Assembly (NCBI GenBank): GCA_013335535.1
Contig: JAAXVL010000003.1
Span: forward strand, 124,001-188,000
DNA: 64,000 nucleotides
Direction: 5' to 3'
From: Azonexaceae bacterium
GTDB lineage: Bacteria; Pseudomonadota; Gammaproteobacteria; Burkholderiales; Rhodocyclaceae
The notes below the pieces were generated by a model. The model saw only the letters and a program-made list of their open reading frames with translations. It made no database searches and was not told the DNA's origin. Below, in pieces: positions 11,483-25,411 of the stretch (position 1 is its first letter; every line of letters begins with the position of its first letter). The translations under genes were made by a program, and so were the position numbers.

Positions 11483-12397
11483 TCAAGCGTTTTTCATCGC
11501 GATGAATTCGTCGATTAGGCGAACGAGGATGTCCTCTTCGTCTTCGTCGCTCAGGCCCAGTAGTTCAGCTACCAGTTTTACCTTGTTTGGATTGACCTTG
11601 CTTCGTGAGGAGGAGGGCGCAGCAGGCACGGCAGGAGCCTCTTCCCAAGGTGGTGTCGTGACAGTGGCCGCAGCAGTTTCAACAGGAACGGGAATTGGGG
11701 CTGCGATAACAGCAGGCTCAGCAGCAGAAGGCTCTTCCTTCTTTTTGCCTCGCCCCGTTTCTTCAGAGAGCGCGTTGTCGACGACCTTCTTCGACACCTT
11801 TTCTCCCTCCGGCAATTGCTCGATCTGTTCGATAAGCGTTTCAGCCTTGGCCTCATTCTTCTTGGCCAGCTTCTCGATCTGAATAGCTGCGCTGGTGCTT
11901 GAGATCTTCCCAGAGTCCAGCAACGCGGTGACCTTCTCGGACAGATTTGCAGCAGCGGTTGCCTGGCTCAACCAGGTAGGAGCACGTCCAAAATGTTGAG
12001 CAGCTTCTTCAGGCGTTGTGAAACGATCGGCGATGGCCTGGATAGCATTGGCCATGTCACGTGGCTCTAGGGCTGAGCGAACGCCAAGGCCGATGTTCTC
12101 AAATACCTGTATCTCAAGTGTGTCGTCCGGTGAACAGGCGCGGATCACAACAGGAACTGTCTTCTCGCCAGCCTGGATGGCAGCTTGGCGACGGCGCTCA
12201 CCTACAACAACAGTGTAGCGACCAGGCTGATCGGCAGGACGAACGACGAGGGGATGGATGATGCCGACCTTCTGGATTGAATTCACCAGCCCCTTAATCG
12301 TGTCTTCATTGATGTTCTGGCGAGCATGCTTTGGATCACGATCAAGCAGCATCACATCGATGGTCTGAAATTGTGCTGAGCTGTCTTTGAAGGTCAT
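11483..12397 (-). CDS. parB: ParB/KorB-type partition and CTPase-fold protein
   Basis: Residues ~14-120 carry the ParB N-terminal domain: box with GIIHPLVVRP, then the nucleotide-binding GERRRQAAIQAG, then ENIGLGVRSALEPRDMANA. A helix-turn-helix follows (EEAAQHFGRAPTWLSQATAA), then a helical dimerisation segment, a Pro/Ala-rich linker (~230-265) and a small C-terminal helical domain. ParB proteins bind parS-like DNA sites, slide as CTP-dependent clamps, and work with ParA to segregate plasmids. No parA is visible in this window, so it may lie to the left, or this may be a KorB-like regulator. Candidate palindromic sites exist at 21362, 21841 and 22201. Confidence 0.85.
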   Translation of the reverse strand: MTFKDSSAQFQTIDVMLLDRDPKHARQNINEDTIKGLVNSIQKVGIIHPLVVRPADQPGRYTVVVGERRRQAAIQAGEKTVPVVIRACSPDDTLEIQVFENIGLGVRSALEPRDMANAIQAIADRFTTPEEAAQHFGRAPTWLSQATAAANLSEKVTALLDSGKISSTSAAIQIEKLAKKNEAKAETLIEQIEQLPEGEKVSKKVVDNALSEETGRGKKKEEPSAAEPAVIAAPIPVPVETAAATVTTPPWEEAPAVPAAPSSSRSKVNPNKVKLVAELLGLSDEDEEDILVRLIDEFIAMKNA

Positions 12398-12455
12398 GAT
12401 CTATCCGCTGGCAAATGCAAAAGGGGCAGCATGGTGCCCCGTTTTCAAAGCTTTA

Positions 12456-12647
12456 TCAATCCAGGTCGTGATGCTTGCAAAGACACTGTGTGTGTTTGCA
12501 ATTCGTGCATTCGAACGGATTGTCCGATCCGACCTCGGTAACTAGATCTTGCATGTCGTCACCGATTCCCGAGATGTCGTGCTCGATATCAAACACGACG
12601 ACTTGGCAGCCCTCGACAGGGCATTTGCGATAGTTGGAAAAGTTCAT
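12456..12647 (-). CDS. Small zinc-ribbon protein, 63 aa
   Basis: AAAGGAG sits ideally before ATG 12647, which is why the longer upstream frame is rejected. The product has Cys pairs RKCPVEGCQ near residue 8 and FECTNCKHTQCLCKHH near the C-terminus, consistent with one or two bound zinc ions. The middle is acidic. It lies upstream of and co-directional with parB (58 bp gap), so the two may share the promoter near 12700. No family name is justified. Confidence 0.65.
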   Translation of the reverse strand: MNFSNYRKCPVEGCQVVVFDIEHDISGIGDDMQDLVTEVGSDNPFECTNCKHTQCLCKHHDLD

Positions 12648-13068
12648 GGTTTGCTCCTTTGAGCAGAGTTGATTGAGCCACCAGCATCGCGTCACGACCG
12701 GTTCAAGTGTCAAAAACTGAGTTTTGTTGCGCCTTGGCAACACCATTTCGCCTGAACTGAAAATATTTTTCAGTCCGTCTAACCTCTGTTTTTGGCCTCA
12801 AATCTTCGTCCTGCTCGGACAAACCCCCAATCCTTTTTCCGTCATGGAATAAATGGCAATTTCTGCCTAAATTTTGTGCAAATCACGGCCAATTTGTAGC
12901 GATTTTGATTTCCATGTTGGAACAAGATCGTGATGGCAGGATTTGGCCTATCTTTGTCCATGAAAGACAAAGAACACAACAAAATCAACGACTTGCAATA
13001 TTTTCAGATGGTTGATAACTTAAAAAACGTCATCTCAAGACCACTCAATCAATCATCTGGAGAATTCA
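12648..13068. promoter_or_regulatory. Divergent regulatory gap with palindrome at 12756-12774
   Basis: About 420 bp without a gene separates the leftward zinc-ribbon/parB unit from the rightward 13069 gene. It holds a palindrome with 8-bp arms, ACTGAAAA-TAT-TTTTCAGT (12756-12774), and a related inverted repeat CAAAA-N6-TTTTG near 12713. Both are placed as operators for the leftward promoter would be. Nearer 13069 the DNA is AT-rich, and an AATTTTG-rich stretch may carry the rightward promoter. No iteron array is seen here. Confidence 0.45.
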
Positions 13069-13863
13069 ATGTACGACCACCTGAAAGTCGGTAACGAAGT
13101 CGGAATCACAATCGCGAAATGCATCAACCACGCGTTTGATGGCGACATAGAGGACGCCGCTGAAGAACTTGCCAATGCGGTTACCGAGCTTGCGAAAATC
13201 AAGAGCGAAGCGTCCCGGCAAAGAGCCACCCAGTACGCAATAGAGGTGGCCAGAGCCTGGCTCGATCTTGATGATGGTCTCTATCCAGTTATCGAAGGCA
13301 CTCGCGCCTGCGAGCCGTTCTGGAGGCCTCGCGTTCCGAAAGTCGTGACGCTAGACGAGCAGGTGTCCCTATACTCGGCTGGTGTTGTCCTGGCCAAGGC
13401 GCTTTCGTACGCATGCAATGGCAAACCGCTGGAGGCTAAGGCCACATTCCCGCTGGCCGTTGCGCAGTTAAACCAGCTTCCGACTACTGGCGATCGCTTC
13501 GATGCGTGTGACTACGCTCTCCAGATTGCCGATCGAGGTTGGGAGGCTGTTGCTGTGCAAGCTTGGCAAGACCTGATCGATGCAACTGAGCACGCAAACG
13601 AGACCTACGCCGACCTAGCTTTCAGCCACATGATTGTTGCTGTCGAAGATCTGGCGGCTATTGCTGATCCACAAGATCGTGCGATGGCCGTCGAGTTTGC
13701 TCGGCAACGAGTGAGTGCCGTGATGGGGGAGAAGTATCAGGAAGCATCACTGTTCTTCGTCCAGATTGTCGGCCAGCAAGAAGGGTGGAGTGCCACCCAA
13801 AAAGGCGTCTTCAGTGCTCTCGTTCAGCCAAGAGAAGTGACCCCGGCGCGTTTGCCTGGGTAA
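13069..13863 (+). CDS. Unknown helical protein, 264 aa
   Basis: TGGAGAA precedes ATG 13069. The sequence is almost entirely Ala/Glu-rich helix, arranged in two similar halves (residues ~10-70 and ~100-170), each with a pattern like ITIAKCINHAFDGDIEDAAE or VVLAKALSYACNGKPLEAKA. This suggests an internal duplication of a four-helix or TPR-like unit. There is no export signal. It is followed after 18 bp by an exported protein gene. Function unknown; a scaffold or adaptor is plausible. Confidence 0.6.
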   Translation: MYDHLKVGNEVGITIAKCINHAFDGDIEDAAEELANAVTELAKIKSEASRQRATQYAIEVARAWLDLDDGLYPVIEGTRACEPFWRPRVPKVVTLDEQVSLYSAGVVLAKALSYACNGKPLEAKATFPLAVAQLNQLPTTGDRFDACDYALQIADRGWEAVAVQAWQDLIDATEHANETYADLAFSHMIVAVEDLAAIADPQDRAMAVEFARQRVSAVMGEKYQEASLFFVQIVGQQEGWSATQKGVFSALVQPREVTPARLPG

Positions 13864-13881
13864 CCTTCCTTGGAGAAATAC

Positions 13882-14298
13882 ATGAGCAAATCAAAATTCG
13901 CCGCAGCCCTGTTTGCCGCGTGCCTTTCCACCGCAGCATTCGCAGATCCTGGATATCAGCTTAGCTGGACCGACTCGAAGGCAGTCTCTGGCGCTTCAAT
14001 CAGCAAACTCAAGATCCAGAACTTGACCAATCAGAAGGCCTGCGCCTTCGCCAGAGTGCTTCCGGCAGACGTTAGCAGTAGCGAGATGATCATGGAGCAC
14101 GGCTGGAAAATCGTTGTAGAGAGCCTTGATGCTCCTGTCGAGGCGCAAGGTGAGGTTGTGTTTGACCTTGCCAAAATGAACCTCGTGATCGGCGACTCCT
14201 ACGTTGTCGGTTATGGCGCTCAGCCATGCCCAGTTGAGCATTCAGGCAACCTGAAGGATGGGGCAGTCGTGGCAATCAAGCACTTCCGCGTCAATTGA
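13882..14298 (+). CDS. Exported 138-aa protein of unknown function
   Basis: The start is ATG 13882 with TTGGAGAA before it; a TTG four codons upstream is rejected. A Sec signal (residues 1-21, ending TAAFA) leads a beta-rich mature domain with two cysteines (KACAFARVL and AQPCPVEH), a likely disulfide. The size and strand pattern fit a small immunoglobulin-like periplasmic domain. A GNRA-loop hairpin follows at 14317. No family is identified. Confidence 0.65.
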   Translation: MSKSKFAAALFAACLSTAAFADPGYQLSWTDSKAVSGASISKLKIQNLTNQKACAFARVLPADVSSSEMIMEHGWKIVVESLDAPVEAQGEVVFDLAKMNLVIGDSYVVGYGAQPCPVEHSGNLKDGAVVAIKHFRVN

Positions 14299-14316
14299 TG
14301 CTGCACACCAAAAACA

Positions 14317-14340
14317 ACCGAGGCGGGCAACCGCTTCGGT
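14317..14340 (+). terminator. Hairpin with GNRA loop, probable weak terminator
   Basis: Stem ACCGA / TCGGT continues into GCGG / CCGC, closed by a GCAA tetraloop. Only CTTATG follows rather than a T-run, so termination may be partial, or the hairpin may protect mRNA ends upstream of the helicase gene. Confidence 0.5.
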
Positions 14341-14404
14341 CTTATGTGCACTCGTTCCGCCAAGAAGAGCATTGGGGCGTGTATCGCCCAGCTTTTCATT
14401 GGGT

Positions 14405-15802
14405 ATGAACATGGACGAACTGAATGCTTTCCAAGCGTTAATAGCAACAGAGCAGTCTCTTCTTGGCGGAGCAATGCTGGATGCCGACTTGTACGACAAA
14501 CTCGCCAGCAAGCTCTTTCCGCGTGATTTTTTTATTGAAGCGCACCGCAAAATCTTTGTTGGCATCAAGGATGAGCTTGAGGATCGCGGATCAATCGCAC
14601 CGCTGCTGCTTGCGCGTCGTCTCGAACAAAACGGCGTCAAGGAAGCTATTTCACTTGTCTCATCGATTGAAGAGAAGGCTTGTGATCAAAGCAACTTCAC
14701 CTGCTACCTTGAAATCGTCCTGGATGCGGCAAAAGAGCGAAACATCCATGGGCTTGGTCAGAAGGTAAAAGACGACACAGACAACGCAACGATCTGGGCC
14801 GAAAAGATCAAAGCAGAAAAAGAGCGCTCCGTTGATGACAGCGATGAATTTGATGCAAGAGCTGTATTGACCCGATGGGTTGAGCGTCAGCAAGTTTTGA
14901 TCAACAACAAGGGCGAGCTGATCGGGTTAGCCACTCCGATCAAAGAACTCAATAAGCTGACGCTCGGCCTGCAAAAGACGGACATGATTGTTGTGGCCGC
15001 TCGCCCGAGTATGGGCAAGACCGGGTTTGCCATAAATCTGGCCGTGCATTGCGCTGTTGAGTCGAATCTGCCTGCAATCGTTTTTTCACTTGAAATGAGC
15101 GAGATGCCGGTCATGGACCGCGTGATGGCGATGCTTTCACACGTGCCAGTCAACACTCTCAAAACGCCACAATTGATGAATGACGACGAGTGGAACAAGC
15201 AGTCTGCTGCAATGGGCAAACTTGCAAACGCCCCGTTCTACCTTCTCGATAGCCCGCGATTCGCTAATGCTGATCTCATGCGTAAGCGTGCAAAAGATAT
15301 CAAGCGCAAGCACGGAGGACAACTTGGACTGATCGTCATTGACTACTTGCAACTGATGAACGACGGGCAACATCACCAGAGTCGCGAGCGTGAAGTCGCC
15401 GAACTGAGCAAGGCGGTCAAGCGCATGGCAAAGGATCTGGATGTGCCTGTCGTCGTCCTCTCCCAACTCTCCCGGAATGTCGAGGGCCGTACGGATAAGC
15501 GGCCCCTGATGTCTGATCTACGCGAGTCCGGAGGCATCGAGCAAGACGCTGACGTGATCCTGATGCTTTATCGCGATGACTACTACGACAAGGAAAGCGC
15601 ATCGAAGGGTGTAACCGAAATCATTATCGGCAAGCAACGAAACGGGCCAACCGACACGGTGATGGCAGCTTTTATGCCTGACTTCCAGTTGTTCGGGAAT
15701 CTTGGGTTCGACGATCGGGATAGGGAAACACCCCATTCGCGTTCTGCTTTCGTACCAAAAGCAGTGTCACTTTCCGGCAAAAAAGTTTGGAGCGCAAAAT
15801 GA
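14405..15802 (+). CDS. DnaB-family replicative helicase
   Basis: A 465-residue protein with the DnaB N-terminal domain (EQSLLGGAMLDADLYDKLAS, residues ~15-110) and the RecA-like helicase domain (from ~175). It has Walker A ARPSMGKTGFAI, the SLEMSE block, Walker B LGLIVIDYLQLM, QLSRNVEGR, and the arginine-finger region DLRESGGIEQDADVILMLYR. It unwinds DNA ahead of the replisome. The start is ATG 14405 or 14411; longer frames would run into the upstream gene. The TGA overlaps the initiator gene's ATG, and the iterons lie just downstream, so this is the element's own replication module. Motifs are intact and activity is expected. Confidence 0.92.
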   Translation: MNMDELNAFQALIATEQSLLGGAMLDADLYDKLASKLFPRDFFIEAHRKIFVGIKDELEDRGSIAPLLLARRLEQNGVKEAISLVSSIEEKACDQSNFTCYLEIVLDAAKERNIHGLGQKVKDDTDNATIWAEKIKAEKERSVDDSDEFDARAVLTRWVERQQVLINNKGELIGLATPIKELNKLTLGLQKTDMIVVAARPSMGKTGFAINLAVHCAVESNLPAIVFSLEMSEMPVMDRVMAMLSHVPVNTLKTPQLMNDDEWNKQSAAMGKLANAPFYLLDSPRFANADLMRKRAKDIKRKHGGQLGLIVIDYLQLMNDGQHHQSREREVAELSKAVKRMAKDLDVPVVVLSQLSRNVEGRTDKRPLMSDLRESGGIEQDADVILMLYRDDYYDKESASKGVTEIIIGKQRNGPTDTVMAAFMPDFQLFGNLGFDDRDRETPHSRSAFVPKAVSLSGKKVWSAK

Positions 15803-16725
15803 TCAACGATCTGATTCATCAAGAAGATGTTCTTGCTGTTAATAGATTTCCTGTATCCACAGCCGCAACATTCAGATCGCCAGTCTTTCTTCCTTGGATC
15901 AAGGCAACCGACATCATGATTCGAGATTACGAAACCCAGTATCGCCCGTGGCGCAAGGTTGATGTAATCGATAGGAAGGGAAATCAGATTGAGTCGATCG
16001 AGATCGACAAACCTCTGTGGCGTCGGCACAAGAACTTCTTGAACGCTCTCTTCTCAAACATCGTCCCGATTCCGCTTGAAAATGGTGGGTGCCTGTTTGT
16101 CTATTCAGCAAACTGGATGGCTACAAAGCTTGGTTATGAGCAACCAAACAAGCGACTCCAGGACGTTGATCAGATCGCATCGCAGATCAAGAGAACAACA
16201 ATCAATTACAGACTGAAAAATCGGCCAGGCGTAAGCGAAGTCAATATTTTCGACAAGACAACCCGCATCACAGGTGATGATGTCGAAAAATATGGTCTGC
16301 CTGCGGAAGCATCGGGAATGCGAAGCGTGATTGTCTCTCCTGATTGGATTGAGCTAATTAAAAGCGATCAGCAGGTTGTCATGATGCCGGAGACAGCTCA
16401 AACCATCGCTCAGATTCCGGATGGCGCTTGGCAGTCAATCGTTGAAATCGCCCTTAGCCATAAGGATTTTTTCAATCAAAGGCTCGAAACATCGAAAGAT
16501 GGGGAAACCATCGGAGCGATAGAGTTGATCGGCTTCAAAAAAGCGTTGATGTCCAAGAGCGCTTACTCGAAACAACGGAAAAACCTTATCACTCAGTCGG
16601 AATCGTCAGACATGGCGGCAAGATTGACTGGTGTTGTGATCGAAGAAGGCGCTGATGGATTTGTGGTTCGCCGGATCGATCAACACAACAAGGTTGGCCA
16701 CATCTACATTTCTGATTGGACATGA
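15799..16725 (+). CDS. Putative replication initiator (Rep)
   Basis: A 308-residue basic protein coupled to the helicase by ATGA and followed within 80 bp by an iteron array. That position is the main evidence for an initiator role. Residues ~100-215 have two winged-helix-like blocks (YSANWMATKLGYEQPNKRLQ and FINQRLETSKDG-type spacing), and basic patches (IKRTTINYRLKNRP) could touch DNA. No clear match to a named Rep family was recognised; TrfA- or RepA-like arrangements are the nearest parallels. An intrinsic terminator closes the helicase-rep operon at 16757. A DnaA-box-like TGTATCCACA lies inside the gene near 15852. Confidence 0.6.
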   Translation: MINDLIHQEDVLAVNRFPVSTAATFRSPVFLPWIKATDIMIRDYETQYRPWRKVDVIDRKGNQIESIEIDKPLWRRHKNFLNALFSNIVPIPLENGGCLFVYSANWMATKLGYEQPNKRLQDVDQIASQIKRTTINYRLKNRPGVSEVNIFDKTTRITGDDVEKYGLPAEASGMRSVIVSPDWIELIKSDQQVVMMPETAQTIAQIPDGAWQSIVEIALSHKDFFNQRLETSKDGETIGAIELIGFKKALMSKSAYSKQRKNLITQSESSDMAARLTGVVIEEGADGFVVRRIDQHNKVGHIYISDWT

Positions 16726-16756
16726 TGGAGAACGATTTAGTCCTCGTCTGATCAAT

Positions 16757-16779
16757 CGGCCCTTCGGGGCCGTTTTTTT
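16757..16779 (+). terminator. Intrinsic terminator with UUCG loop
   Basis: Stem CGGCCC / GGGCCG with a TTCG tetraloop is followed by seven Ts. It ends the helicase-initiator operon just before the iterons. Confidence 0.92.
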
Positions 16780-16804
16780 CTGGTCGGCTGCACATCAAGA
16801 AGAG

Positions 16805-16945
16805 AAAAGTTTCCCGGTAGAGGGAGGGGTTAAGACAAAAAGTTTCCCAGTAGAGGGAGCCGAGTTTCCCAAAGGAGGGAGGGAAAACTTCAAAATTTTC
16901 CCAGTAGAGGGAGTGAAAACACCAAAAGTTTCCCAGTAGAGGGAG
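16805..16945. repeat. Iteron array, probable plasmid-type replication origin
   Basis: Five direct repeats of about 22 bp, with the core GTTTCCCAGTAGAGGGAG, start at 16805, 16838, 16860, 16892 and 16924. Copies 1, 2, 4 and 5 are nearly identical; copy 3 is degenerate (core 16864-16881). Start-to-start spacing is 33, 22, 32 and 32 bp, i.e. whole helical turns, as expected for a protein bound on one face. Each repeat contains a small dyad (TTTCCC / GGGA). An AT-richer stretch follows. With the adjacent initiator and helicase this reads as an iteron-controlled origin. Confidence 0.8.
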
Positions 16946-17498
16946 GCGATCAAGAGATTTAAAGAGTTCTTTTCAAGAGAACTCAAGAGAAGCTTCGCTG
17001 TTTCGCCTGAGGGGCGAACAGCTCGCAACCACAAAACCATCCCGGCAAATTACGCCTGGTATCCGATACAACTTGGAGAGGCTTTGCTTTAGGGGAGGGC
17101 AAAGGATCGGGAGTCACGTCAAACGACTATGGGTAATTGATTCACCTTGTAGTGCTTAGCAAAATGCCAAGTCCAAAGGCGCAAGTGCGACAAATGCAAA
17201 GCTGCAACGCACTTTTTCCTGCTAAGCCTTCAACCCGCAGACCACGTACAACACGCCAAACTTCATCAGTACCCGCTTCGGTGGTTTTTTGGAAAAATTC
17301 GAACAGAAGGAACCCGGTTTAATCAGGTGAAGCCCTCAAAGTACCCGGTTTAATCATGCCTTCAGAGATATCAGTGACCGCACCGAGGCCACATGAAGCC
17401 AGCCGCAAGATCAAGCACCGTCAACATCTCAGCGTCTGTTTTGCTTAGCAAAAAAGCACTATGGCATCATTGGGCGAATATCCACTACAAGGGCAATC
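16946..17498. other. Gene-free origin-flanking region
   Basis: About 550 bp with no supported gene. It contains the inverted repeat GAGTTCT-N7-AGAACTC (16964-16984), several TGCTTAGCA-type motifs (17153, 17442, and the reverse TGCTAAGCC at 17220), and two copies of ACCCGGTTTAATCA (17312 and 17343). It probably completes the origin (DNA-unwinding, host-factor or copy-control sites) and carries the promoter of the gene at 17499. Confidence 0.5.
17312..17356. repeat. Two 14-bp direct repeats, 31 bp apart
   Basis: ACCCGGTTTAATCA occurs at 17312-17325 and again at 17343-17356. The 31 bp period is three helical turns. It could be a second class of initiator site or an operator for the gene at 17499. 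Confidence 0.6.
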
Positions 17499-18401
17499 AT
17501 GTTTCTTGGTATCGATAACGATGGCGGCCAAATTTACGAAGGCGGCGGCGCTCCCCAGTTTCCTGTTTTTCCCCGGCCTGCCATTAGCTTAGTGAAAGTC
17601 ATTGAAACACCTGACGACTGGAACAATCTTCCGAGGGACATTTCGCACGCGCCATTTCCTTGGTGTTTCCGGGAAGATTCGTTTGACCCGGTAACTCGCG
17701 TCCGGAGAGGCAGGTTGTACGAGTCGTATCAAAATGCCCAGCCTCAAAGCTGGCCAGTAGCGGCGCATCCGTTCGATAACGAAGGTGCACGAGAGGTTGC
17801 AGCTAGCCGCCAGCTCGTTAAGCGCTTATTTACGTATTTTCCTTGTCAGACGATGACTGCTCGTCCCGATCGTGGGCATGGTTTGTTGCTCGCCATTGGA
17901 TCGGGGCGGGCAGCTTCAGCTTGGCGTGTGATCCAGGTTGAGACGTTGATCGATCAGGATATCTTGGTGACTCTGAAAGCGATCTCGGCATTTGGAATCA
18001 TCCCTGAAATCAATAGCATCAAAATTGCGCCTGCAAATCAACAATCAGTACACCAGGCAATCGATCGCGTCCTCGATTCGGCTTTCCGCGAGACCGCAAT
18101 TTCAGTGATTGACCACTGCCGGAATGCAGCACAGGTTGTGATTTCTCGTTGGATGTTACAAGAGGGTGCGGATACCAAGGTTCTTGCGAAGGATCTTGAT
18201 CAGGTTTGCAAGGCGGTTGAGGCGAAGCCATATAGCAAATTCGCAACTAGGGACGCAGCCAACATCATTCGGATACTGCATACCCGAGGGAAAGCCAACA
18301 AGCTGGAATCTGAGGGGCTGAGATTATCAGTCGAAGAGGATGCCGAGCTATCGATCCAAGCTCTGGGTTTCATCCTGCGGGAAGTCGGGTGGGCAAACTG
18401 A
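17499..18401 (+). CDS. Unknown 300-aa protein next to the origin
   Basis: ATG 17499 follows AGGGCAATC. The first ~120 residues are rich in Pro, Phe and Trp, with loops (GGGAPQFPVFPRPAISLVKV). The remaining part is helical (ETLIDQDILVTLKAISAF, then VICKAVEAK-like repeats). No catalytic motif, signal peptide or membrane helix is seen. Its position beside the iterons and conserved origin motifs suggests a replication or copy-control role, but nothing in the protein itself proves it. Confidence 0.55.
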   Translation: MFLGIDNDGGQIYEGGGAPQFPVFPRPAISLVKVIETPDDWNNLPRDISHAPFPWCFREDSFDPVTRVRRGRLYESYQNAQPQSWPVAAHPFDNEGAREVAASRQLVKRLFTYFPCQTMTARPDRGHGLLLAIGSGRAASAWRVIQVETLIDQDILVTLKAISAFGIIPEINSIKIAPANQQSVHQAIDRVLDSAFRETAISVIDHCRNAAQVVISRWMLQEGADTKVLAKDLDQVCKAVEAKPYSKFATRDAANIIRILHTRGKANKLESEGLRLSVEEDAELSIQALGFILREVGWAN

Positions 18402-18577: not shown

Positions 18578-18590
18578 CCATGTCATCGCA

Positions 18591-18744: not shown

Positions 18745-18818
18745 GACGCTTCTCACTGAGGAGCGTCAAAGAGTCTTGAAAATGGCTACAACGATGAATC
18801 GTTATAGCCATTCAAGAC
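18745..18818 (-). promoter_or_regulatory. Two tandem hairpins between third and fourth small genes
   Basis: The first (18773-18818) has ~20-bp imperfect arms, GTCTTGAA plus TGGCTA and ACGAT pairing with their complements. The second (18745-18767) pairs GACGCT with AGCGTC. Both lie in the 153 bp gap of the operon, before the ribosome site of the 28-residue gene. They may be processing sites, mRNA-stability elements or an attenuator; neither has a T-run. Confidence 0.6.
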
Positions 18819-18830
18819 AAAAGCATCGAC

Positions 18831-19169
18831 CTACAGAGCAACAACTGGCTTAACAGCAAAATTCGAAAGAACAGGTTTCTTGCCATTCATCCAGTGATGT
18901 TCTTGAAACGCTTTCAAAACAAGCTTTTGCGTTTCAGTAGTAGCAGCGCTAAACAATTCTTGCTGGCGATCACGTAGAAAATTCCTACGATTACGCTCGA
19001 ACTTGTACTTTTCTTGAAAATCCCAATCGAAAGTTGCAAGTTGCTTGAAATACTTAGCTGTCGCTTCATCGACCTTAGGTGTTACAACTGAATCGTCTTC
19101 GAAGTCAAAAAACTTAAACATAACGACGACCAAGACCAAAACAGACAGTGAAAATGCATAAAAAGCCAT
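18831..19169 (-). CDS. Small single-pass membrane protein, 112 aa (third gene of operon)
   Basis: The start is ATG 19169 with TAAGGAG before it; an upstream in-frame Met is rejected because it reads through the hairpin. Residues 2-24 are a strongly hydrophobic helix (FYAFSLSVLVLVVVMFKFF) with no cleavage site. Then come an acidic linker and a basic, aromatic helical domain (FDWDFQEKYKFERNRRNFLR). The topology is probably N-out or a simple anchor with a cytoplasmic domain. The family is not recognised. Confidence 0.65.
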   Translation of the reverse strand: MAFYAFSLSVLVLVVVMFKFFDFEDDSVVTPKVDEATAKYFKQLATFDWDFQEKYKFERNRRNFLRDRQQELFSAATTETQKLVLKAFQEHHWMNGKKPVLSNFAVKPVVAL

Positions 19170-19201
19170 GGTGAATCTCCTTAAGAAAAAACAAAAAAAG
19201 A

Positions 19202-19233
19202 GATGCACCTGACCCAAAGGGACAAGAAGCATC
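19202..19233 (-). repeat. Spacer hairpin, copy A
   Basis: On the minus strand it reads GATGC, an internal TTGTCCC-TTT-GGGTCA, then GCATC. It is the same design as the hairpin at 19407 and lies in the spacer before the 112-aa gene. The two copies share the TTGTCCCTTT(T)GGGTCA core, so they are homologous elements. Confidence 0.65.
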
Positions 19234-19257
19234 CCGGAGGGGTTTGAAAAACTACAA

Positions 19258-19383
19258 TCAGACGAGCGCAGCAGTGATACGAACGAGCGGGGCGAGGATC
19301 TTAGAAGCAACAACGATCAAAGCACCGACAGCGAAAGCAGCATCAAGCGGCGTGGTCGGAACAAAAGCGAGAACGAATTTCAT
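19258..19383 (-). CDS. 41-residue hydrophobic protein (second gene of operon)
   Basis: GGAGA precedes ATG 19383. The 41 residues (MKFVLAFVPTTPLDAAFAVG, then ALIVVASKILAPLVRI) contain one hydrophobic helix of ~20 residues flanked by single Lys/Arg residues, i.e. a minimal membrane protein. The size recalls type I toxins or phage coat proteins, but no prepeptide or known motif is present. It sits between two copies of the same spacer hairpin. Gene status rests on the ribosome site and operon context. Confidence 0.55.
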   Translation of the reverse strand: MKFVLAFVPTTPLDAAFAVGALIVVASKILAPLVRITAALV

Positions 19384-19406
19384 GATGAGTCTCCAAATAA
19401 TTTAGA

Positions 19407-19439
19407 GACGCATCTGACCCAAAAGGGACAAGATGCGTC
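19407..19439 (-). repeat. Spacer hairpin, copy B
   Basis: Arms GACGCATC / GATGCGTC enclose TTGTCCC-TTTT-GGGTCA on the minus strand. It is closely related to the hairpin at 19202 and lies between the first and second small genes. Confidence 0.7.
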
Positions 19440-19465
19440 CCGAGTGGGTAGTAGTGAATTCATGT

Positions 19466-19690
19466 TTAAGCGAAAGAAAGCTCAAACTGATGTGACGTTG
19501 ATACAGGCTGAGGCTTAAGCGAATTCCGTGGGGAGAGAGAAAAAATACAATCCAGCGGAATACCGTACTTAAGCGAACGTTGCTCAGGAGTGAGATTCGG
19601 TTCGAGAGCAAGCGCAACACGGCGGTTTGCTTCACGAGTCAGAATTTCAATACGAGCTTTTTGCTCAACGGAAAGGCGTTCAGTGATCAT
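19466..19690 (-). CDS. 74-residue protein (first gene of small-protein operon)
   Basis: TAGGAG precedes ATG 19690. The first ~45 residues are helical and charged (TERLSVEQKARIEILTREAN), followed by a Pro/Ser-rich tail. No cysteine or hydrophobic helix. It is the first gene after the strong leftward promoter at 19858-19885 and its structured ~160-base leader. A DNA- or RNA-binding adaptor is possible, but no family is recognised. Confidence 0.6.
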   Translation of the reverse strand: MITERLSVEQKARIEILTREANRRVALALEPNLTPEQRSLKYGIPLDCIFSLSPRNSLKPQPVSTSHQFELSFA

Positions 19691-19777
19691 GATTAACTCC
19701 TAAAAAAATAAACAAAAGGAGAGAACCATGATCCTTGCGGGAACGTGGTTCCCGAAGGTGGTGAATCTAGCGCAGAG

Positions 19778-19840
19778 CGCGGTAATGCAGAGCGTACGAA
19801 ACGCGGTAATGCAGAGCGAAAAAATCGCGGCGATGCGGTA
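19778..19840. repeat. Three repeats with an exact 24-bp period in the operon leader
   Basis: CGCGGTAATGCAGAGCG occurs at 19778-19794 and 19802-19818. A degenerate third copy (CGCGGCGATGCGGTA) begins at 19826, so starts are 24 bp apart. They lie downstream of the predicted start of the leftward transcript, hence in its leader, and between the operon and the divergent regulator gene at 19965. They could be operator sites or repeated RNA elements. Confidence 0.75.
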
Positions 19841-19857
19841 CAGCTAAAGTGGTTCCT

Positions 19858-19885
19858 ATAATAAATAAAATTCGTATCGTGTCAA
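19858..19885 (-). promoter_or_regulatory. Strong sigma-70 promoter for the small-protein operon
   Basis: On the minus strand, TTGACA (19885-19880) and TATTAT (19863-19858) are separated by 16 bp in AT-rich DNA. Transcription would start near 19851. The regulator gene at 19965 diverges from it. Confidence 0.75.
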
Positions 19886-19964
19886 CTGTTCGGATACTAA
19901 TTAAATTTTGGCCTCGATTGTTTGGGTTTAGCCTGACGTTACCTAACTCAACTCGAAGGCAAGC

Positions 19965-20426
19965 ATGTCAAAGTCAAAGCAAGTCCCTGGCGCACTTCTG
20001 ATCGCAGCAATCAATGGAGAGATGCGCAAACGCAAGCAAACCCAAGTCGATACCGCAGTCTTGCTGGGGCTTAGCAAGCCTTACCTGGCAGCTCTTCTAA
20101 GTGGCGACAGGCCGTTATCTGGGCTTGGCAAAGACAAGATTGAATCCATTGCTCGATACCTTGAGATCCCTGCAATGCAAGTCAGGACGATGGCCGAGCA
20201 GATTCATGTCAATGAGTTCTTTTGCGAGACAAAGGTTGAGCAGGAGATCGATCAAGCCTACCAGCGGATGCTTGAAGACAGTCTTTGGTGCACTTTTGCT
20301 ATACCCCTCGAACAATGGACTTCGATGACGCTGGAAGCCAAGCGGCTGATCGTTCTTCTATATGAACGGGTAAAGCACGAGGACTTTCTGACCAAGGCAA
20401 TTCCGTTTCGGGTGGTTGATGCTTGA
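19965..20426 (+). CDS. XRE/Cro-like helix-turn-helix regulator, 153 aa
   Basis: Residues ~8-65 form a helix-turn-helix (LIAAINGEMRKRKQTQVDTA, then LLGLSKPYLAALLSGDRPLS), close to the XRE pattern of a Q-x-A-x3-LG-S recognition unit. The remainder is helical and acidic, probably for dimerisation. It diverges from the small-protein operon, whose promoter is only ~80 bp away, so it is the obvious candidate repressor of that operon and perhaps of itself. A terminator follows at 20447. Confidence 0.7.
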   Translation: MSKSKQVPGALLIAAINGEMRKRKQTQVDTAVLLGLSKPYLAALLSGDRPLSGLGKDKIESIARYLEIPAMQVRTMAEQIHVNEFFCETKVEQEIDQAYQRMLEDSLWCTFAIPLEQWTSMTLEAKRLIVLLYERVKHEDFLTKAIPFRVVDA

Positions 20427-20446
20427 TCGGGCCATTCTCGGCAACC

Positions 20447-20471
20447 AATCCGCCTGCGTGGCGGATTTTTT
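20447..20471 (+). terminator. Intrinsic terminator
   Basis: Stem AATCCGCC / GGCGGATT with a 5-base loop, then a T-run. It ends the regulator transcript. Confidence 0.88.
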
Positions 20472-20487
20472 ATGCGAGAAAAATTCA

Positions 20488-20516
20488 TTGACGTAATACA
20501 CTTAACGTCTAATAAT
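20488..20516 (+). promoter_or_regulatory. Predicted sigma-70 promoter
   Basis: TTGACG (20488-20493) and TAATAA/AATAAT (20510-20516) at 16-17 bp spacing stand ahead of the gene at 20548. Confidence 0.6.
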
Positions 20517-20547
20517 CGGCTGATTGACAAATATATCGTACTCAAAC

Positions 20548-21357
20548 ATGTCCGAAGCCAATCAAGACAAAGAATTTAATCGTCAGACCCTCTCACGGCT
20601 CGCGTCGAGCTGGAGCAAAGTGTCGAAGTTCACTCTCCAGTATTACGCCGATGCAGTTCCAGTGACGCGATCAAATCTTTATGCCCAGGTGTCCGATCCT
20701 GAGAATGGCAAGCGCCTTGGCATCGAGGCATTGATTAGCGCTGCATTCGTCACAGGCGTACAGGTTGCTGAAGACGGTCAATGGTATCTAGTCAATGGCC
20801 ATGCCCAGCAGTGGCCATGGAAGAAGGACGACGCTGAAGACGTCTCTGCGATCCAGGCTTACCTCAAGCAGGTTCACGAACGGCTCGGTGCGAAAGCACC
20901 ATTCAAGATTACCGAAGTCTCGGTGATAAAAAATCGCTACTACCGGGCCAACCGCGAGTATGCGCTGATCGAGATCACTGACCGAGCTGGCAACGAAATG
21001 TCGTCAATGATCTACTCGGACAGCAAAGAGCAGATCAACATCGCCATCCAGGTCTTTCTTGATTCAGGCGTCTGTGAGAAAACCAGCGATGAAATTGTCC
21101 TCTCACCTGAGATGGCATTGCAGCTCATCCATGGCCCGATTCCGAAGCCGCAGCCGGTTCCAAAGGTAGAGGACGTTAACTGGAATGAGTGGATGCCCAT
21201 GGTCTATCGCTGGCACCTGATGGGCTACACCCCCCAATCTATCGATTCAATGATGGCTTTGGCGAGAGGTGTTACGCCGCCCGCTGAAAGCAAAAAAGTC
21301 GTTGGATCAGGCTTTGCGCCTGGTAGCGAGACCGAGCAAAAACCTTGGGGCTTTTGA
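20548..21357 (+). CDS. Unknown 269-aa protein with HTH-like N-terminus
   Basis: ATG 20548 is preferred to a TTG at 20524. Residues ~15-75 are helical and look like a DNA-binding unit (SRLASSWSKVSKFTLQYYAD, then TRSNLYAQVSD). The middle (~105-185) is a strand-rich domain (FKITEVSVIKNRYYRANREY), and the tail is Pro-rich with a helical WMPMVYRWHLMGYTPQSID block. A promoter precedes it. The next gene begins after a shared palindrome, so this is the first gene of the 20548-22997 cluster. Family unknown. Confidence 0.55.
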   Translation: MSEANQDKEFNRQTLSRLASSWSKVSKFTLQYYADAVPVTRSNLYAQVSDPENGKRLGIEALISAAFVTGVQVAEDGQWYLVNGHAQQWPWKKDDAEDVSAIQAYLKQVHERLGAKAPFKITEVSVIKNRYYRANREYALIEITDRAGNEMSSMIYSDSKEQINIAIQVFLDSGVCEKTSDEIVLSPEMALQLIHGPIPKPQPVPKVEDVNWNEWMPMVYRWHLMGYTPQSIDSMMALARGVTPPAESKKVVGSGFAPGSETEQKPWGF

Positions 21358-21361
21358 TCAA

Positions 21362-21378
21362 ATTTTCACGGTGAAAAT
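21362..21378. promoter_or_regulatory. 17-bp palindrome, copy 1 (parS-like)
   Basis: ATTTTCAC-G-GTGAAAAT is a perfect palindrome around a single G, only 6 bp before ATG 21385. Its half-site is close to that of the bacterial parS consensus (GTTTCAC), but the spacing is one base longer. Confidence 0.65.
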
Positions 21379-21384
21379 CTGGCG

Positions 21385-22200
21385 ATGAGTGACCTTTCCG
21401 CAGGTGAAAAGCGCCGACTCGAAAAGCTGTTCGGCATGGGGAGCGGCTACGTTCTCAATTTCAGCGACCGGACGTTTGGCGAGTTCTTTGAGGACATTGC
21501 CAGGCTAGATATCGATCAGGAGAAATACCACGAGCAAGGCAGCTCAAAGGCGAAGCGTCTTCGGACATTCTGGCGCATCGATTCCAATCATCTGGTGGGC
21601 AAAGTCACTGAGGCCATGATCCAGTATGGCTGGGAAGAAAAATGCTTGTGCGGGTCAGATGACCCCAACCTGAAAGACGACTGCTGGAAAATTGCTCAGC
21701 GTCTGAAGTCTGATACTCCCGTTGCGGAGTTGGATGCACTGTCTGCTATCAACGACGAGAAGGATTTCGAAGTCGTTGCGCAGCACGTGAAAGATGCAAT
21801 CGAGAAGAACCAGCCCGAAGCTGCCCTCGACCGCCTGCACATTTTCACGGTGAAATTCGTACGTACTTTGTGTGAGCAACACGGGATTGAAGTGACCCGT
21901 GAGAAGGCCCTGCACAGTGTCTTCGGGGAGTATGTGAAGAAGCTCAAGGAAGAGGGGCACCTGGAGGCGCAGATGACTGAGCGCATCCTCAAGTCTTCCA
22001 TCTCAGTGTTCGAGGCTTTCAACCACGTGCGAAACGACAAGAGCTTGGCGCACGACAACCCAATCCTCAATTACGAAGAGGCGCTGCTGATCTTCAATCA
22101 TGTCGCAGCGACTATCCGCTTCATCAAAAACCTCGAAGTGCAGATTGCGCCGCCTCCGCCAGCCAAGAAATCAGTGAGCTGGGACGACATCGAGTTCTGA
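21385..22200 (+). CDS. Abi_C-like (abortive infection family) protein, 271 aa
   Basis: The C-terminal ~70 residues (MTERILKSSISVFEAFNHVR, then NDKSLAHDNPILNYEEALL) match the abortive infection C-terminal region, in which an RN-x-x-S/G-x-AH motif ends a helical, HEPN-related bundle. The N-terminal ~130 residues are charged and include a Cys pair (KCLCGSDD). Such proteins act in phage resistance in several bacteria, usually as RNA-targeting or growth-arresting effectors. It has its own 17-bp palindrome upstream and contains a second copy at 21841. No Shine-Dalgarno is clear. Phage defence is inference. Confidence 0.65.
   Translation: MSDLSAGEKRRLEKLFGMGSGYVLNFSDRTFGEFFEDIARLDIDQEKYHEQGSSKAKRLRTFWRIDSNHLVGKVTEAMIQYGWEEKCLCGSDDPNLKDDCWKIAQRLKSDTPVAELDALSAINDEKDFEVVAQHVKDAIEKNQPEAALDRLHIFTVKFVRTLCEQHGIEVTREKALHSVFGEYVKKLKEEGHLEAQMTERILKSSISVFEAFNHVRNDKSLAHDNPILNYEEALLIFNHVAATIRFIKNLEVQIAPPPPAKKSVSWDDIEF
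21841..21857. promoter_or_regulatory. 17-bp palindrome, copy 2, inside the Abi_C-like gene
   Basis: ATTTTCACGGTGAAATT matches the copies at 21362 and 22201, with one arm base changed. It lies inside the coding region (residues ~153-158), which fits a bound-protein site better than a translation signal. Confidence 0.55.
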
Positions 22201-22217
22201 TTTTTCACGGTGAAAAA
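22201..22217. promoter_or_regulatory. 17-bp palindrome, copy 3
   Basis: TTTTTCAC-G-GTGAAAAA is a perfect palindrome placed directly after the TGA of the preceding gene and 12 bp before ATG 22230. Confidence 0.65.
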
Positions 22218-22229
22218 ACATTAGCCAGC

Positions 22230-22997
22230 ATGTCTACCTACCGCTATCGGCAATATCGAAATGCACTCAAAAGTACCCCATTTGTTGGGCGCTATATGCC
22301 TTACGAGAAGGATGGGCTACCTGATTCTATTCCGTTCGAGTGGATGGCTTGGGTAGAGATGCACCAAGAGTTTTCAAGGGAAATTTCTAATTCGATCAAT
22401 GAGTTGACTAGATTTACACACCATCTTGCTGCCTGGCGAAATGTTGCAGCTCCACTCAATGACCAACAAAAATTTCAACTTGCCCATGAGTTCATTTCTC
22501 CTCTTGCAACATTGGCGCTAAATCTTCCGTACGTGATCCGTTCGCGATTGATTTTTGCAACTGCGCATCTTTGCCATCAAGCAAACAAGGCAAGAGAAGG
22601 ATTGAAATGGACGGACGATCTGCCGCTCGATAGTGAAATCGTCTTTGCTCAGGCTGACCAGTATGGCAAGCCATGGAAGCCCTACTCAAAGCTTAAAGTT
22701 GCCCTTGAGCGCATTGGTGACAAGGCCTTTCAGGTCGCAACTGGTGATTTTCGAAATGCCTACAACCACCGTTTCTCACCGAGAATCCTTGTCGGTCAAA
22801 CTCAGATCGTCACTCGGAAGGTTGAAAAAGGGACGGGAAAGGTAAGTTACGGTTACGGTGGAATTGATCCACTTTCTTTAGATCTGATCGTAAAACAGCT
22901 TGAAGTGGTGTGTGAGCACTGCTACAAGGCCTTCGATGGCTTCCGAAAGATGGTGAAAGAACACGAGAAGGCCATAATTGGCACCTTGTCACCTTAG
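22230..22997 (+). CDS. HEPN-like helical protein, 255 aa
   Basis: An all-helical, aromatic-rich protein with a RNAYNHR motif (R-x4-H) near residue 176, in the sequence FRNAYNHRFSPRILVG. R-x4-6-H is the catalytic signature of HEPN RNases. The size and the motif's place in the second half fit a HEPN fold such as those in Cthe_2314-like families. It follows the Abi_C-like gene and carries the same upstream palindrome, so the two are probably co-controlled. Toxin or RNase activity is inference. Confidence 0.55.
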   Translation: MSTYRYRQYRNALKSTPFVGRYMPYEKDGLPDSIPFEWMAWVEMHQEFSREISNSINELTRFTHHLAAWRNVAAPLNDQQKFQLAHEFISPLATLALNLPYVIRSRLIFATAHLCHQANKAREGLKWTDDLPLDSEIVFAQADQYGKPWKPYSKLKVALERIGDKAFQVATGDFRNAYNHRFSPRILVGQTQIVTRKVEKGTGKVSYGYGGIDPLSLDLIVKQLEVVCEHCYKAFDGFRKMVKEHEKAIIGTLSP

Positions 22998-23008
22998 CCG
23001 ATAAAAGC

Positions 23009-23689
23009 TTAAGCAGTCTGGGTCGCGTTACTACTAACACTCCTCGTATCCAAGTAAGCTGCCAAAGCGTCAAACTGCCGATCTGTCTGGTCGCTCGGAT
23101 CAACAAACATCAACTTAAACAGGTTGCGGATGTTGTCGGCTGTCACCTCTGTTGAGGTTGGGTCGAAAGTCTTGCCGTTGGGGAGAGTTACCTGCTGGCC
23201 ACCCATTCCAATCCGGGACATACCTACGAGCATCAGTCCATGTGCTGCCTCGTGATTCCCCTTTGCCACCATCTCGTCGTACAGAGCTTTTTCGCCAGTC
23301 GATAGGTAGGACATCGTGTTCACGAAGCCACCAGCTTTCTGCATGTAGTCCACTTCGTCTGCGGTGAGTGAGTCGAAGCCATCCAGGCCGCTGGCCTTCA
23401 TTTTTTCCTGCAACTCAATAAAGCGCTTGTCGTTCTTCACCAGGTATTCGGTGTCGGCTTCAGTGCGCTCAACGCCTGGCTTTGCTTTGATCTCGGCCAA
23501 TCGCTGTTTAATTGCAGCGTCTTGGGTGTTCGACGCCTGTGATTTGCTTAGCAGGGCAAAAGCTTCGTTCGAGATTGATACCTGATCGGCATTATTTGCC
23601 GTGTTGCCGGTCGACGTTTGCCTAGTTGCAGCCGTTCTTGTTGCCGCGCCATAAGCTGCCATCACGTTGTTCAAGCCTTGGATGATCAT
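23009..23689 (-). CDS. Unknown 226-aa protein
   Basis: The start is ATG 23689 with GGAGG before it. The N-terminal ~60 residues are low-complexity Ala/Thr/Asn, with a VSISNEAFALL segment resembling those seen in flagellar or secreted regulatory proteins. The remainder is helical and charged. There is no signal peptide, and no repeats or cysteines. It is convergent with the HEPN-like gene and divergent from 23822, sharing a 132 bp gap with an operator-like dyad. Function unknown. Confidence 0.55.
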   Translation of the reverse strand: MIIQGLNNVMAAYGAATRTAATRQTSTGNTANNADQVSISNEAFALLSKSQASNTQDAAIKQRLAEIKAKPGVERTEADTEYLVKNDKRFIELQEKMKASGLDGFDSLTADEVDYMQKAGGFVNTMSYLSTGEKALYDEMVAKGNHEAAHGLMLVGMSRIGMGGQQVTLPNGKTFDPTSTEVTADNIRNLFKLMFVDPSDQTDRQFDALAAYLDTRSVSSNATQTA

Positions 23690-23733
23690 TTTTCTACCCT
23701 CCAGATTTTTCTGTTGGCTAGTTGCAATTGGCA

Positions 23734-23759
23734 TGCCAGACAAAACTACCTGTCCGGCA
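23734..23759. promoter_or_regulatory. Operator-like dyad between divergent genes
   Basis: TGCCAGACA and TGTCCGGCA are inverted repeats (8 of 9 positions pair) with an 8-bp spacer, located midway between the starts of the 23689 (minus) and 23822 (plus) genes. Confidence 0.5.
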
Positions 23760-23792
23760 AATCACCGTCTTCTGTTCCTCCGTCCCGCCAAG

Positions 23793-23816
23793 AACCTCAT
23801 CTTCACAAATGAGGTT
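23793..23816 (+). promoter_or_regulatory. Hairpin covering the ribosome site of the 23822 gene
   Basis: AACCTCAT / ATGAGGTT form a perfect 8-bp stem around an 8-base loop. The GAGG (23811-23814), the only ribosome site before ATG 23822, lies in the stem, so folding would block translation. Confidence 0.6.
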
Positions 23817-23821
23817 CAGTC

Positions 23822-24676
23822 ATGACCAAGGCTTACATCCAGACGCTGTTGCAGCGTCCAATCGCGTTTCATCGTGTTTTTGTTCCACTGGGCGGCGTCA
23901 CCGGAGCACTCTTTCTCAGCCAACTCCTTTATTGGTCCGATCGTGGCAGCGAAGGCAACGGCTGGATCTACAAAACGCAGGCCGAATGGACTGACGAAAC
24001 TGGCATGACGCGCCGGGAGCAGGAAACAGCTCGTCGCCAACTCCGCGAGGCTGGTGTGATCGAGGAAAGCTACAAAGGGCTGCCAGCCAAGTTGTTTTAC
24101 CGGATCAACTTCGATGCGCTGTCCGAGTTCATCGAGGGCCAGGTCAAAGTTGCGGAAACTCGTACATCCAAGGATGGCGGAAACGTACATCCTGTATGCA
24201 CAAAAGCGCCATCCAAGCGTGGCGGAAAGCGCCAGTCTACTAATAAGACAGAGATTACTTCAGAGACTACAGCAGTAGCAGAGCAAGCCTTGTCGGAATG
24301 CGGAAAGCAAGCTGCTGCTGCTTCGTCTGTCGATGAGAAATTGGAGGTGGCTCGGAAACGTGGTGCGGTGATCGAGAGTGAGGAAGACCAGCTTGTTCTT
24401 GCTGAGCTAATTGCTGAGTTTGAGTTGCCGAAGGTGCTTGAGGCGATCGATGCGGTTCGGCACGAAGATCATCGACGTGCTTACGCGAGCACGCTCAGGA
24501 AGAAGTTGAAAAGCAGCGTGGCTTTGCAGAAAAACAAACAGGCGGTCGAGAACTCGATGAAGTTTGAGATCGACACTGAGGACAAGATTAAGGCCAAAGC
24601 AGAAGGATCTGACTGGCTCGCAAATCTGGCTCGTAAGAAAGCTGCGAAGCAACAAATTGCTGTTGAGGGAGTGTGA
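23822..24676 (+). CDS. Winged-helix replication-type protein, 284 aa
   Basis: Residues ~8-105 form a winged helix (GALFLSQLLYWSDRGSEGNG, then WIYKTQAEWTDETGMTRREQ, then RRQLREAGVIEE). This pattern is known from phage and plasmid replication accessory proteins of the DnaD/replication-O type. A disordered Thr/Ser/Lys linker follows (~130-175), then a helical C-terminal part (EEDQLVLAELIAEFELPKVL and basic tail). It may recruit helicase or bind the origin. Its TGA overlaps the next gene's ATG. Translation may be controlled by the hairpin at 23793. Confidence 0.65.
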   Translation: MTKAYIQTLLQRPIAFHRVFVPLGGVTGALFLSQLLYWSDRGSEGNGWIYKTQAEWTDETGMTRREQETARRQLREAGVIEESYKGLPAKLFYRINFDALSEFIEGQVKVAETRTSKDGGNVHPVCTKAPSKRGGKRQSTNKTEITSETTAVAEQALSECGKQAAAASSVDEKLEVARKRGAVIESEEDQLVLAELIAEFELPKVLEAIDAVRHEDHRRAYASTLRKKLKSSVALQKNKQAVENSMKFEIDTEDKIKAKAEGSDWLANLARKKAAKQQIAVEGV

Positions 24677-24975
24677 TGATGAAGATGCGTGCAAACGATG
24701 TTGTCGCTGTGCAACCTGAGTTCGTGAAGATCGCCGGAGCGTTGGGAGGGGTGATGCTCTCCCAGCTCTGGCAGTGGTCGGATTTCGAGTTGAATGCCTG
24801 GGTATGCAGAACAGAGTCTGATTGGGTGGCCGCAACGGGGTTGGACTCGACCATGTTGATGAAAGCTCGCAAGCGGTTGGAGTCTCATGGGCTGATCGAG
24901 GTGAGCAACGACCGCCTGGGTGTCAGGATCAATGGTGCCGCGTTGGAGGAAGCGATCAGGCGGGTAGGGCAGTGA
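24676..24975 (+). CDS. Small winged-helix protein, paralogue of the upstream gene, 99 aa
   Basis: ATG 24676 overlaps the upstream TGA, with GAGGGAG before it. The 99 residues repeat the upstream N-terminal domain in shorter form: GALGGVMLSQLWQWSDFELN, then WVCRTESDWVAATGLDSTML, then RKRLESHGLIEV. It is thus a stand-alone copy of the same winged helix and probably binds the same or a similar DNA site, perhaps as a regulator of the larger protein. It is the last gene before the att region. Confidence 0.65.
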   Translation: MMKMRANDVVAVQPEFVKIAGALGGVMLSQLWQWSDFELNAWVCRTESDWVAATGLDSTMLMKARKRLESHGLIEVSNDRLGVRINGAALEEAIRRVGQ

Positions 24976-25039
24976 CCGGGTGTTAATAGTCTATTAACGA
25001 CACCAGAAGGGGGCCGACTGCGATCGTTTCTGTTCGCTT

Positions 25040-25063
25040 CCCTCTGTATACGTATACAGAGGG
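25040..25063. repeat. Perfect 24-bp palindrome
   Basis: The left half CCCTCTGTATAC pairs fully with the right half GTATACAGAGGG, with no spacer. It is long enough to be a high-affinity dimer site or to extrude as a cruciform. It lies ~320 bp from the tRNA-Pro fragment. Confidence 0.75.
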
Positions 25064-25274
25064 TGTGGCTCTGCGAAGAACGTGTGACCTAAGCCCGGTG
25101 GAGAGGTTACAATGCGGCCCGCCTGATCTTCTTACTGGTGGAAGCGATCTGGCGATGTCGGTCTTATAGTTTTTTGGTTGAGATGGTGGAAAGCCGCATG
25201 GATACAGGGATACGCGCAGATGCGCGAAGCCTGGAAGCCATGCAAGTGCACTCGCGACTTTTGCGCGACTCTCC

Positions 25275-25344
25275 TGAAGTCTTATGAAGCCTTATGAAGT
25301 CTCAGTGCAGTGAGCGGTACATCATAAGATGTTGATTCATAAGA
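25275..25344. repeat. Short direct and inverted repeats, candidate integrase arm sites
   Basis: Three tandem 10-mers TGAAGTCTTA, TGAAGCCTTA and TGAAGTCTCA occupy 25275-25304. CATAAGA follows at 25323 and 25338 and is the complement of the TCTTATG formed at the repeat junction. So the same core motif occurs in both orientations within 70 bp of the att core. Confidence 0.6.
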
Positions 25345-25361
25345 GGTCAGGGTGCTACCCC

Positions 25362-25411
25362 CATGCATGGGGTGCAAGGGGTCGCGAGTTCGAATCCCGC
25401 CGCCCCGACCA
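25362..25411 (+). tRNA. 3' half of tRNA-Pro(GGG), attachment-site remnant
   Basis: The sequence from the anticodon arm to CCA is present: loop ATGGGGT with anticodon GGG (25369-25371), stem GCAAG, variable GGGTC, T-arm with TTCGAAT, acceptor CGCCCCG and ACCA (ends 25411). The 5' half (CGGGGCG, D-arm) is missing. The left strand of the anticodon stem reads CATGC where CTTGC would be needed. One A-C mismatch sits in the T-stem. This is a displaced tRNA 3' end at an integration site, not a functional tRNA. Confidence 0.85.

Follow-up and report, generated by a model that had tools for sequence, protein, structure and literature searches.

The 64,000-nucleotide window analysed here (positions 124001–188000 of contig C28 in G000, the 72-contig, 4.25-Mb draft genome of an Azonexaceae bacterium) contains the right-hand part of an 86.7-kb element integrated at a tRNA-Pro gene. 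We propose, with a probability of about 0.7, that this is a plasmid-like integrative element able to excise, and that it is replicated by an initiator of an unrecognised kind acting with a dedicated DnaB-type helicase. The proposal centres on a compact module of helicase gene, overlapping orphan gene, terminator, direct repeats and unstable DNA, most of which had been picked out in an earlier, sequence-only reading of the window. Coordinates prefixed C28 refer to the contig and all others to the window.

A helicase operon followed by a probable iteron-type origin

The module comprises five features:

14405–15802, plus strand: DnaB-type replicative helicase, 465 aa (Pfam DnaB_C and DnaB; TIGR00665 above cut-off)
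15799–16725, plus strand: putative replication initiator, 308 aa, an orphan read from the sequence (ATGA overlap with the helicase gene; no family or relative)
16757–16779, plus strand: intrinsic terminator after the putative initiator gene (stem 16757–16772, then seven T)
16805–16945, plus strand: five iteron-type direct repeats (17-bp cores starting at 16810, 16843, 16865, 16897 and 16929, the third with 3 mismatches)
16950–16991, plus strand: candidate DNA-unwinding element (three copies of TCAAGAGA, at 16950, 16973 and 16983, overlapping the least stable 40 bp)

The identity of the helicase, already read as DnaB-type, is supported by Pfam (DnaB_C, 3.8e-90; DnaB N-terminal domain, 1.4e-12) and by TIGR00665 (397.2 bits, against a cut-off of 385.25). 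Its best-scoring matches in the family, among those listed (390 genomes), are 44% identical, as is a second DnaB copy in the same genome. The best plasmid matches come from Xanthomonas (39.8%), and because no annotated gene overlaps the helicase end in these plasmids, they do not show the same module. In the element, the start codon of the orphan gene (ATG, 15799–15801) overlaps the helicase stop codon (TGA, 15800–15802), with GGAG upstream; the ATGA overlap noted earlier is present. Given this overlap, the element's own DnaB would be the natural partner of the orphan. A perfect 14-bp inverted repeat (14356–14369 and 14457–14470) flanks the helicase start codon and possibly controls the operon.

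As had been read, the gene pair ends at an intrinsic terminator. The terminator scan alone is weak, with 7 terminator-like sites against 6.0 expected in shuffles; the stem at 16757–16772 is the sole scanned site with six G-C pairs. Beyond it lie the five repeats. The core TTTCCCNGTAGAGGGAG is exact in four of them and has three mismatches in the copy at 16865, and this count of five in the window compares with a shuffle mean of 0.42 and was reached in none of 100 shuffles. The helical-turn spacing attributed to the array holds only roughly: the spacings are 33, 22, 32 and 32. For a period of 10.5 bp the phase coherence is 0.75, a value that 6.5% of random-spacing trials attain; for 10.75 bp, a period selected post hoc, it is 0.97. 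The repeats thus lie roughly on one face of the helix. Of 76 genomes in the genus, this one alone contains the iteron pattern. An exact iteron also turns up a single time in an archaeal draft genome, on one contig, which we take as chance, and none was found in the viral contig collection, also when sought as a spaced pair. When up to four mismatches are allowed, the element holds just one further match, on the plus strand at C28:63406; the 188 kb scanned also contain three matches on the minus strand, all of them outside the element.

Next to the repeats is an unstable stretch that had not been reported before. Within the 745-bp intergenic region, the 40 bp of lowest stability start at 16952, and in the element as a whole they belong to the 0.6% of positions that are least stable; 1.5% of its 60-bp stretches show comparable instability. 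The element has two places where a single 8-mer is present three times inside 45 bp, compared to none in 20 simulated sequences of the same length, although the TCAAGAGA triple was sought after the sequence had been read and these figures are descriptive. Five direct repeats of ∼17–22 bp near a putative rep gene, with an AT-rich unwinding stretch carrying short repeats beside them, are the marks of an iteron replicon. An iteron-type origin, as first suggested from the repeats, is therefore well supported, and an origin of replication is likely to be present. The repeat region shows a modest tendency to form hairpins (z −1.81, equalled by 10 of 200 shuffles), and no Rfam family was found in window positions 1–26000. 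Short repeats also lie downstream of the candidate origin, within 17307–17356 and 17148–17453: AAGGAACCCGGTTTAATCA, followed after 31 bp by an 89% similar copy, and TGTAGTGCTTAGCAAAA, which has an 88% similar copy.

The position of the orphan gene and the anatomy of the origin lead us to infer that its product is the initiator. By analogy with SGI1, the protein would bind the five iterons 3' of its own gene on the excised circle, open the adjacent unstable stretch and load the co-translated DnaB-type helicase onto the separated strands, after which primase and polymerase III of the host would complete replication.

Several observations weigh against this scheme, beginning with the orphan itself. 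It has no Pfam match even to E 10, bar a chance score to TmoB (0.13). NCBIfam yields no family, the best PHROGs value is 0.28, and PDB sequence matches are limited to designed barrels at E 2.5 and above. The initiator was described at the outset as lying outside recognised families, and this agrees with our searches: no Rep family was recognised in Pfam, NCBIfam or PHROGs, and the profile searches likewise placed it in no non-replication family. Two structure models, of the full-length protein (pLDDT 36.8) and of residues 197–308 (pLDDT 38.7), are too poor to help, and a Foldseek search with the former, which gave no match at E 0.001, is meaningless at that model quality. A double winged-helix fold, guessed from sequence, was dropped, as nothing supports it.

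Relatives are equally scarce. The orphan is absent from 72,556 plasmid and 50,697 phage records (tblastn), and peptide patterns sought in genome and viral contig collections gave no match apart from itself. It was found in its own genome alone in samples of the order (1 of 300) and class (1 of 369). At E 0.01, 2 of 395 genomes in the family sample were positive; the three samples overlap and contain 299, 368 and 394 genomes, respectively, besides the orphan's own. The second positive, genome G346 (E 0.007), was judged a chance match: the frame reads by eye as a sugar-kinase-like protein, and there is no helicase-like frame within the 2,025 bases listed around it. Free-plasmid relatives, which the earlier reading had proposed to look for, were likewise not found. 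With no relative found to carry the same helicase–orphan pair, conservation lends no support.

The DNA around the module gives further reasons for caution. A promoter scan of 12300–17600 returned one site, on the minus strand, versus 4.2 expected, and identified no promoter for the module. The interval 15701–17700 contains no DnaA box (TTWTNCACA), just sites with one or two mismatches to TTATCCACA. Cumulative GC skew shows no turn at the repeats, though it is uninformative as a test for an origin. Finally, 18% of 745-bp stretches reach comparable instability, so that instability alone says little.

The element is integrated at a tRNA-Pro gene

The window holds the right end of the element:

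1–25414, strand not applicable: in-window portion of the 86.7-kb integrated element (48-bp repeats, GC contrast, empty site in G1080)
25367–25414, plus strand: right-hand attachment site, whose 48 bp match the left copy exactly and comprise the 3' part of tRNA-Pro(GGG) plus 3 further bases

Searching the genome with the right-end sequence located an identical 48-bp copy at C28:62648–62695 and a 58-bp identical stretch on contig C50, where ARAGORN finds an intact tRNA-Pro(GGG); C50 and C28 are unjoined in this draft. The placement of the right end in a tRNA-Pro 3' fragment was therefore correct. Because the other repeat copy lies 86.7 kb upstream, the element runs from C28:62648 to window position 25414 and begins ∼61.4 kb before the first base of the window. 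The sequence-only reading had delimited an element at 11483–25411; it is indeed integrated, but 11483 is no element end, and the interval covers only about its right sixth.

A tyrosine integrase gene (C28:62762–63961) sits just inside the left copy. In a relative, G1080, the site is empty: a single contig carries the C50 side (87.0% identity over 3,204 bp, reaching the tRNA and its terminator) and, 300 bp further on, the right flank of the window (81.2% over 2,723 bp). GC content is 51.6% in the element; on the right it is 60.3%, and on the left, where the surroundings include a further element, 62.0%, so that the deficits are 8.7 and 10.4 points. The 48-bp repeats, the integrase beside the far repeat and the uninterrupted site in a relative show integration at tRNA-Pro, as had been claimed, and within the limits of a draft assembly it is nearly certain that the integrated element is real. 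The integrase would insert the element into the 3' end of tRNA-Pro(GGG) and, we infer, also excise it as a circle.

A second integrase of another kind (with Arm-DNA-bind_3) is encoded just outside the left attachment site, at C28:61011–62456. Its presence suggests a further element at the same site (C28:61011–62648, and C50 below ∼38850), and at least two elements thus appear to be stacked in tRNA-Pro. Beyond the right end, a gene named by eye as secretin-like starts at 25688.

Other replication, partition and transfer genes

Three more features of the element bear on how it is maintained:

11483–12397, minus strand: ParB-type partition protein (ParB_N, 4.2e-21; TIGR00180, 1.9e-32)
23822–24676, plus strand: phage O-like replication protein (phrog_9773, 2.5e-44)
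24673–24975, plus strand: second, shorter O-like protein (phrog_9773, 8.1e-7; GTGA overlap with the first)

The O-like pair near the right end is a further point against the orphan, as it could be the real replicator. In phage lambda, O-like proteins bind the origin and bring in DnaB, and the element's own DnaB could be the partner of these two proteins, leaving the helicase–orphan–repeat module as a relic or helper. The best plasmid match is annotated replication protein O (51.1% identical over 46% of the protein), and the shorter protein of the pair is 39% identical to the longer over the matched stretch (own-genome search). On the other hand, no repeat array was found in 22990–25420, which has just two pairs of 19-bp repeats, and the iteron-type repeats and unstable stretch are 7 kb away, beside the orphan gene. 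We consider replication through the O-like pair improbable.

To survey the remaining genes, we scanned 39 element proteins and the outer integrase against Pfam in four batches of ten, and then 49 of the 61 remaining frames of at least 110 aa; 11 likely shadow frames and one in no single locus were left out, and the scans do not extend to shorter frames or to genes masked by longer shadow frames. The ParB gene that had been noted near the module is there, and an actin-like protein with ALP_N and MreB-like domains is encoded at C28:92932–94014; its best plasmid match (32%) carries the annotation PRTRC system protein D. Among the scanned proteins, no ParA was identified near ParB, and no ParA or ParR to go with the two genes. 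In the scheme we favour, ParB and this ParM relative would ensure that dividing cells retain the circle.

These genes also invite a different view of the repeats, as a partition centromere or an operator for ParB, for an unseen partner of the actin-like protein or for a regulator, with the orphan serving as regulator or helicase loader. Each repeat contains an imperfect dyad (TCCC-GGGA), and the two partition-type genes are without an identified ParA or ParR. There is also a precedent in the SXT/R391 partition locus srpMRC, whose centromere-like srpC is bound by SrpR (PMC4489591). However, the repeats directly follow the helicase operon and adjoin an unstable stretch with short repeats of its own; ParB is 4.4 kb away from them and the actin-like gene 47 kb; and the match at C28:63406 is the only other one in the element. 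We rate this explanation as very improbable, and keep to the repeats as part of an origin.

A third possibility concerns the element's present state: it may be a stranded genomic island that no longer excises or replicates, even if its origin is real, which is compatible with our interpretation of the module. Two coupling-type ATPases are encoded, one of TrwB/TraD type (746 aa) and one short (373 aa). Searches with the large one gave no further match, either among 75 other genomes of the genus (E 1e-40) or among 358 others of the order (E 1e-50). No relaxase or mating-pore family occurs among the proteins scanned, and on this count the element does not qualify as an integrative conjugative element; it may be mobilisable or stranded. 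The lack of these families among the scanned proteins, the shortness of the second ATPase and the apparent stacking of another element in the same site all point towards stranding. Set against this, the integrase, helicase, orphan, ParB and actin-like frames are uninterrupted. Stranding seems unlikely to us, and an element that can still excise and replicate remains our preferred reading.

Other genes of the element include those for UmuD/UmuC-type, SRAP, HU-like, YqaJ-type, GGDEF-EAL and GmrSD-type proteins. A type III restriction-modification pair is encoded at C28:79635–83854 (PADLOC: MTase_III, 8.1e-186; REase_III, 1.7e-199), and two neighbouring frames at C28:114292–117007 match the PADLOC candidate PDC-M68 (A, 2.9e-11; B, 1.2e-13), the second with DUF2326. 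An usher-type outer membrane protein (C28:70746–73163; 1.5e-15) and a SCPU domain among the other scanned frames possibly mark a chaperone-usher pilus-like operon carried as cargo. At 9721–11480, an ADP-ribosyltransferase-like frame (ART-PolyVal, 2.1e-6, below the Pfam cut-off) overlaps by 4 bases the DUF4238 frame that follows it (2e-42), for which PADLOC lists DUF4238-Pers. The gene at 21385–22200 encodes an Abi_C-domain protein (9e-15); its flanking frames (20524–21357 and 22230–22997) have no Pfam match. Two further element proteins lack a plasmid match. The Pfam scans gave no capsid, terminase or portal gene. A PHROGs search with 49 proteins returned one tape-measure and two endolysin labels among the 25 of 39 families listed, labels that the element's M23 peptidase may explain.

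Relation to known replicons and islands

Islands of the SPI-7/pKLC102 type are integrated in tRNA genes and carry a DnaB-type gene together with partition genes. The helicase described here falls outside their DnaB family, scoring 321.4 bits against NF040583, below the cut-off of 655. Literature searches for integrative elements that bring both a helicase and iterons of their own gave SGI1 and SXT/R391 as the nearest.

SGI1 integrates at trmE. In its replication region, rep is followed by a terminator, by four GC-rich iterons of 17 bp and by an AT-rich region in which an 8-bp repeat is present three times, and deletion of rep or oriV abolishes replication while excision is kept (PMC7433901). 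The same order of rep gene, terminator, iterons and AT-rich stretch is found in our element. SGI1 is likewise integrative, with two of its relatives also at trmE, and it is mobilised by a helper plasmid (PMC7433901); no relaxase was found among the proteins scanned here either. There are also differences. The SGI1 Rep family has a RepA_C domain, whereas the orphan has no Pfam match to RepA_C or to replicase plus PriCT-1; the SGI1 iterons (RKGGGGGHRATTATGCG) differ from those reported here, and SGI1 has a DnaA box; and the text of the SGI1 paper does not contain the word helicase (PMC7433901), whereas this element encodes its own.

Iteron plasmids such as RK2, F, P1, R6K and pSC101 have 2–7 iterons, of 17–22 bp in the examples given, beside a DNA-unwinding element, which the initiator opens while helping to bring in DnaB; the need for DnaA and DnaC is optional and depends on the host (PMC4980987). 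In contrast to these plasmids, the orphan lies outside the Pfam Rep families and the element supplies the helicase gene itself. IncQ plasmids resemble the element in having their own helicase and initiator genes, in the cluster repBAC, and an iteron origin (PMC7557826). They differ from it in their iteron consensus; here the helicase is of full DnaB length, no primase family was detected among the proteins scanned, and neither the orphan nor any other scanned protein has a Pfam match to IncQ RepC or to RepB, the primase. SXT/R391 elements are integrative and have an actin-type partition system and a replicating circle, but their replication starts at oriT through the relaxase TraI (PMC4489591), a type of protein that was not found among those scanned here.

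Together, these comparisons suggest that the element would work like an iteron replicon of the SGI1 kind while belonging to no family tested, because its initiator matches none. That the orphan founds a new family of plasmid-type initiators, made with and loading a dedicated DnaB at an origin that needs no host helicase loader and possibly no DnaA, is a tentative idea, and one we regard as somewhat doubtful.

Genomic islands that replicate after excision are already known from the SGI1 and SXT/R391 groups; in this case the protein proposed to start replication belongs to no known family. If our interpretation is correct, the compact helicase–initiator–origin module would be a new replicon type, of use in typing islands and in building vectors for similar hosts, and it would make it possible to test if a helicase of its own is enough for an initiator to function in the absence of the host's loader.

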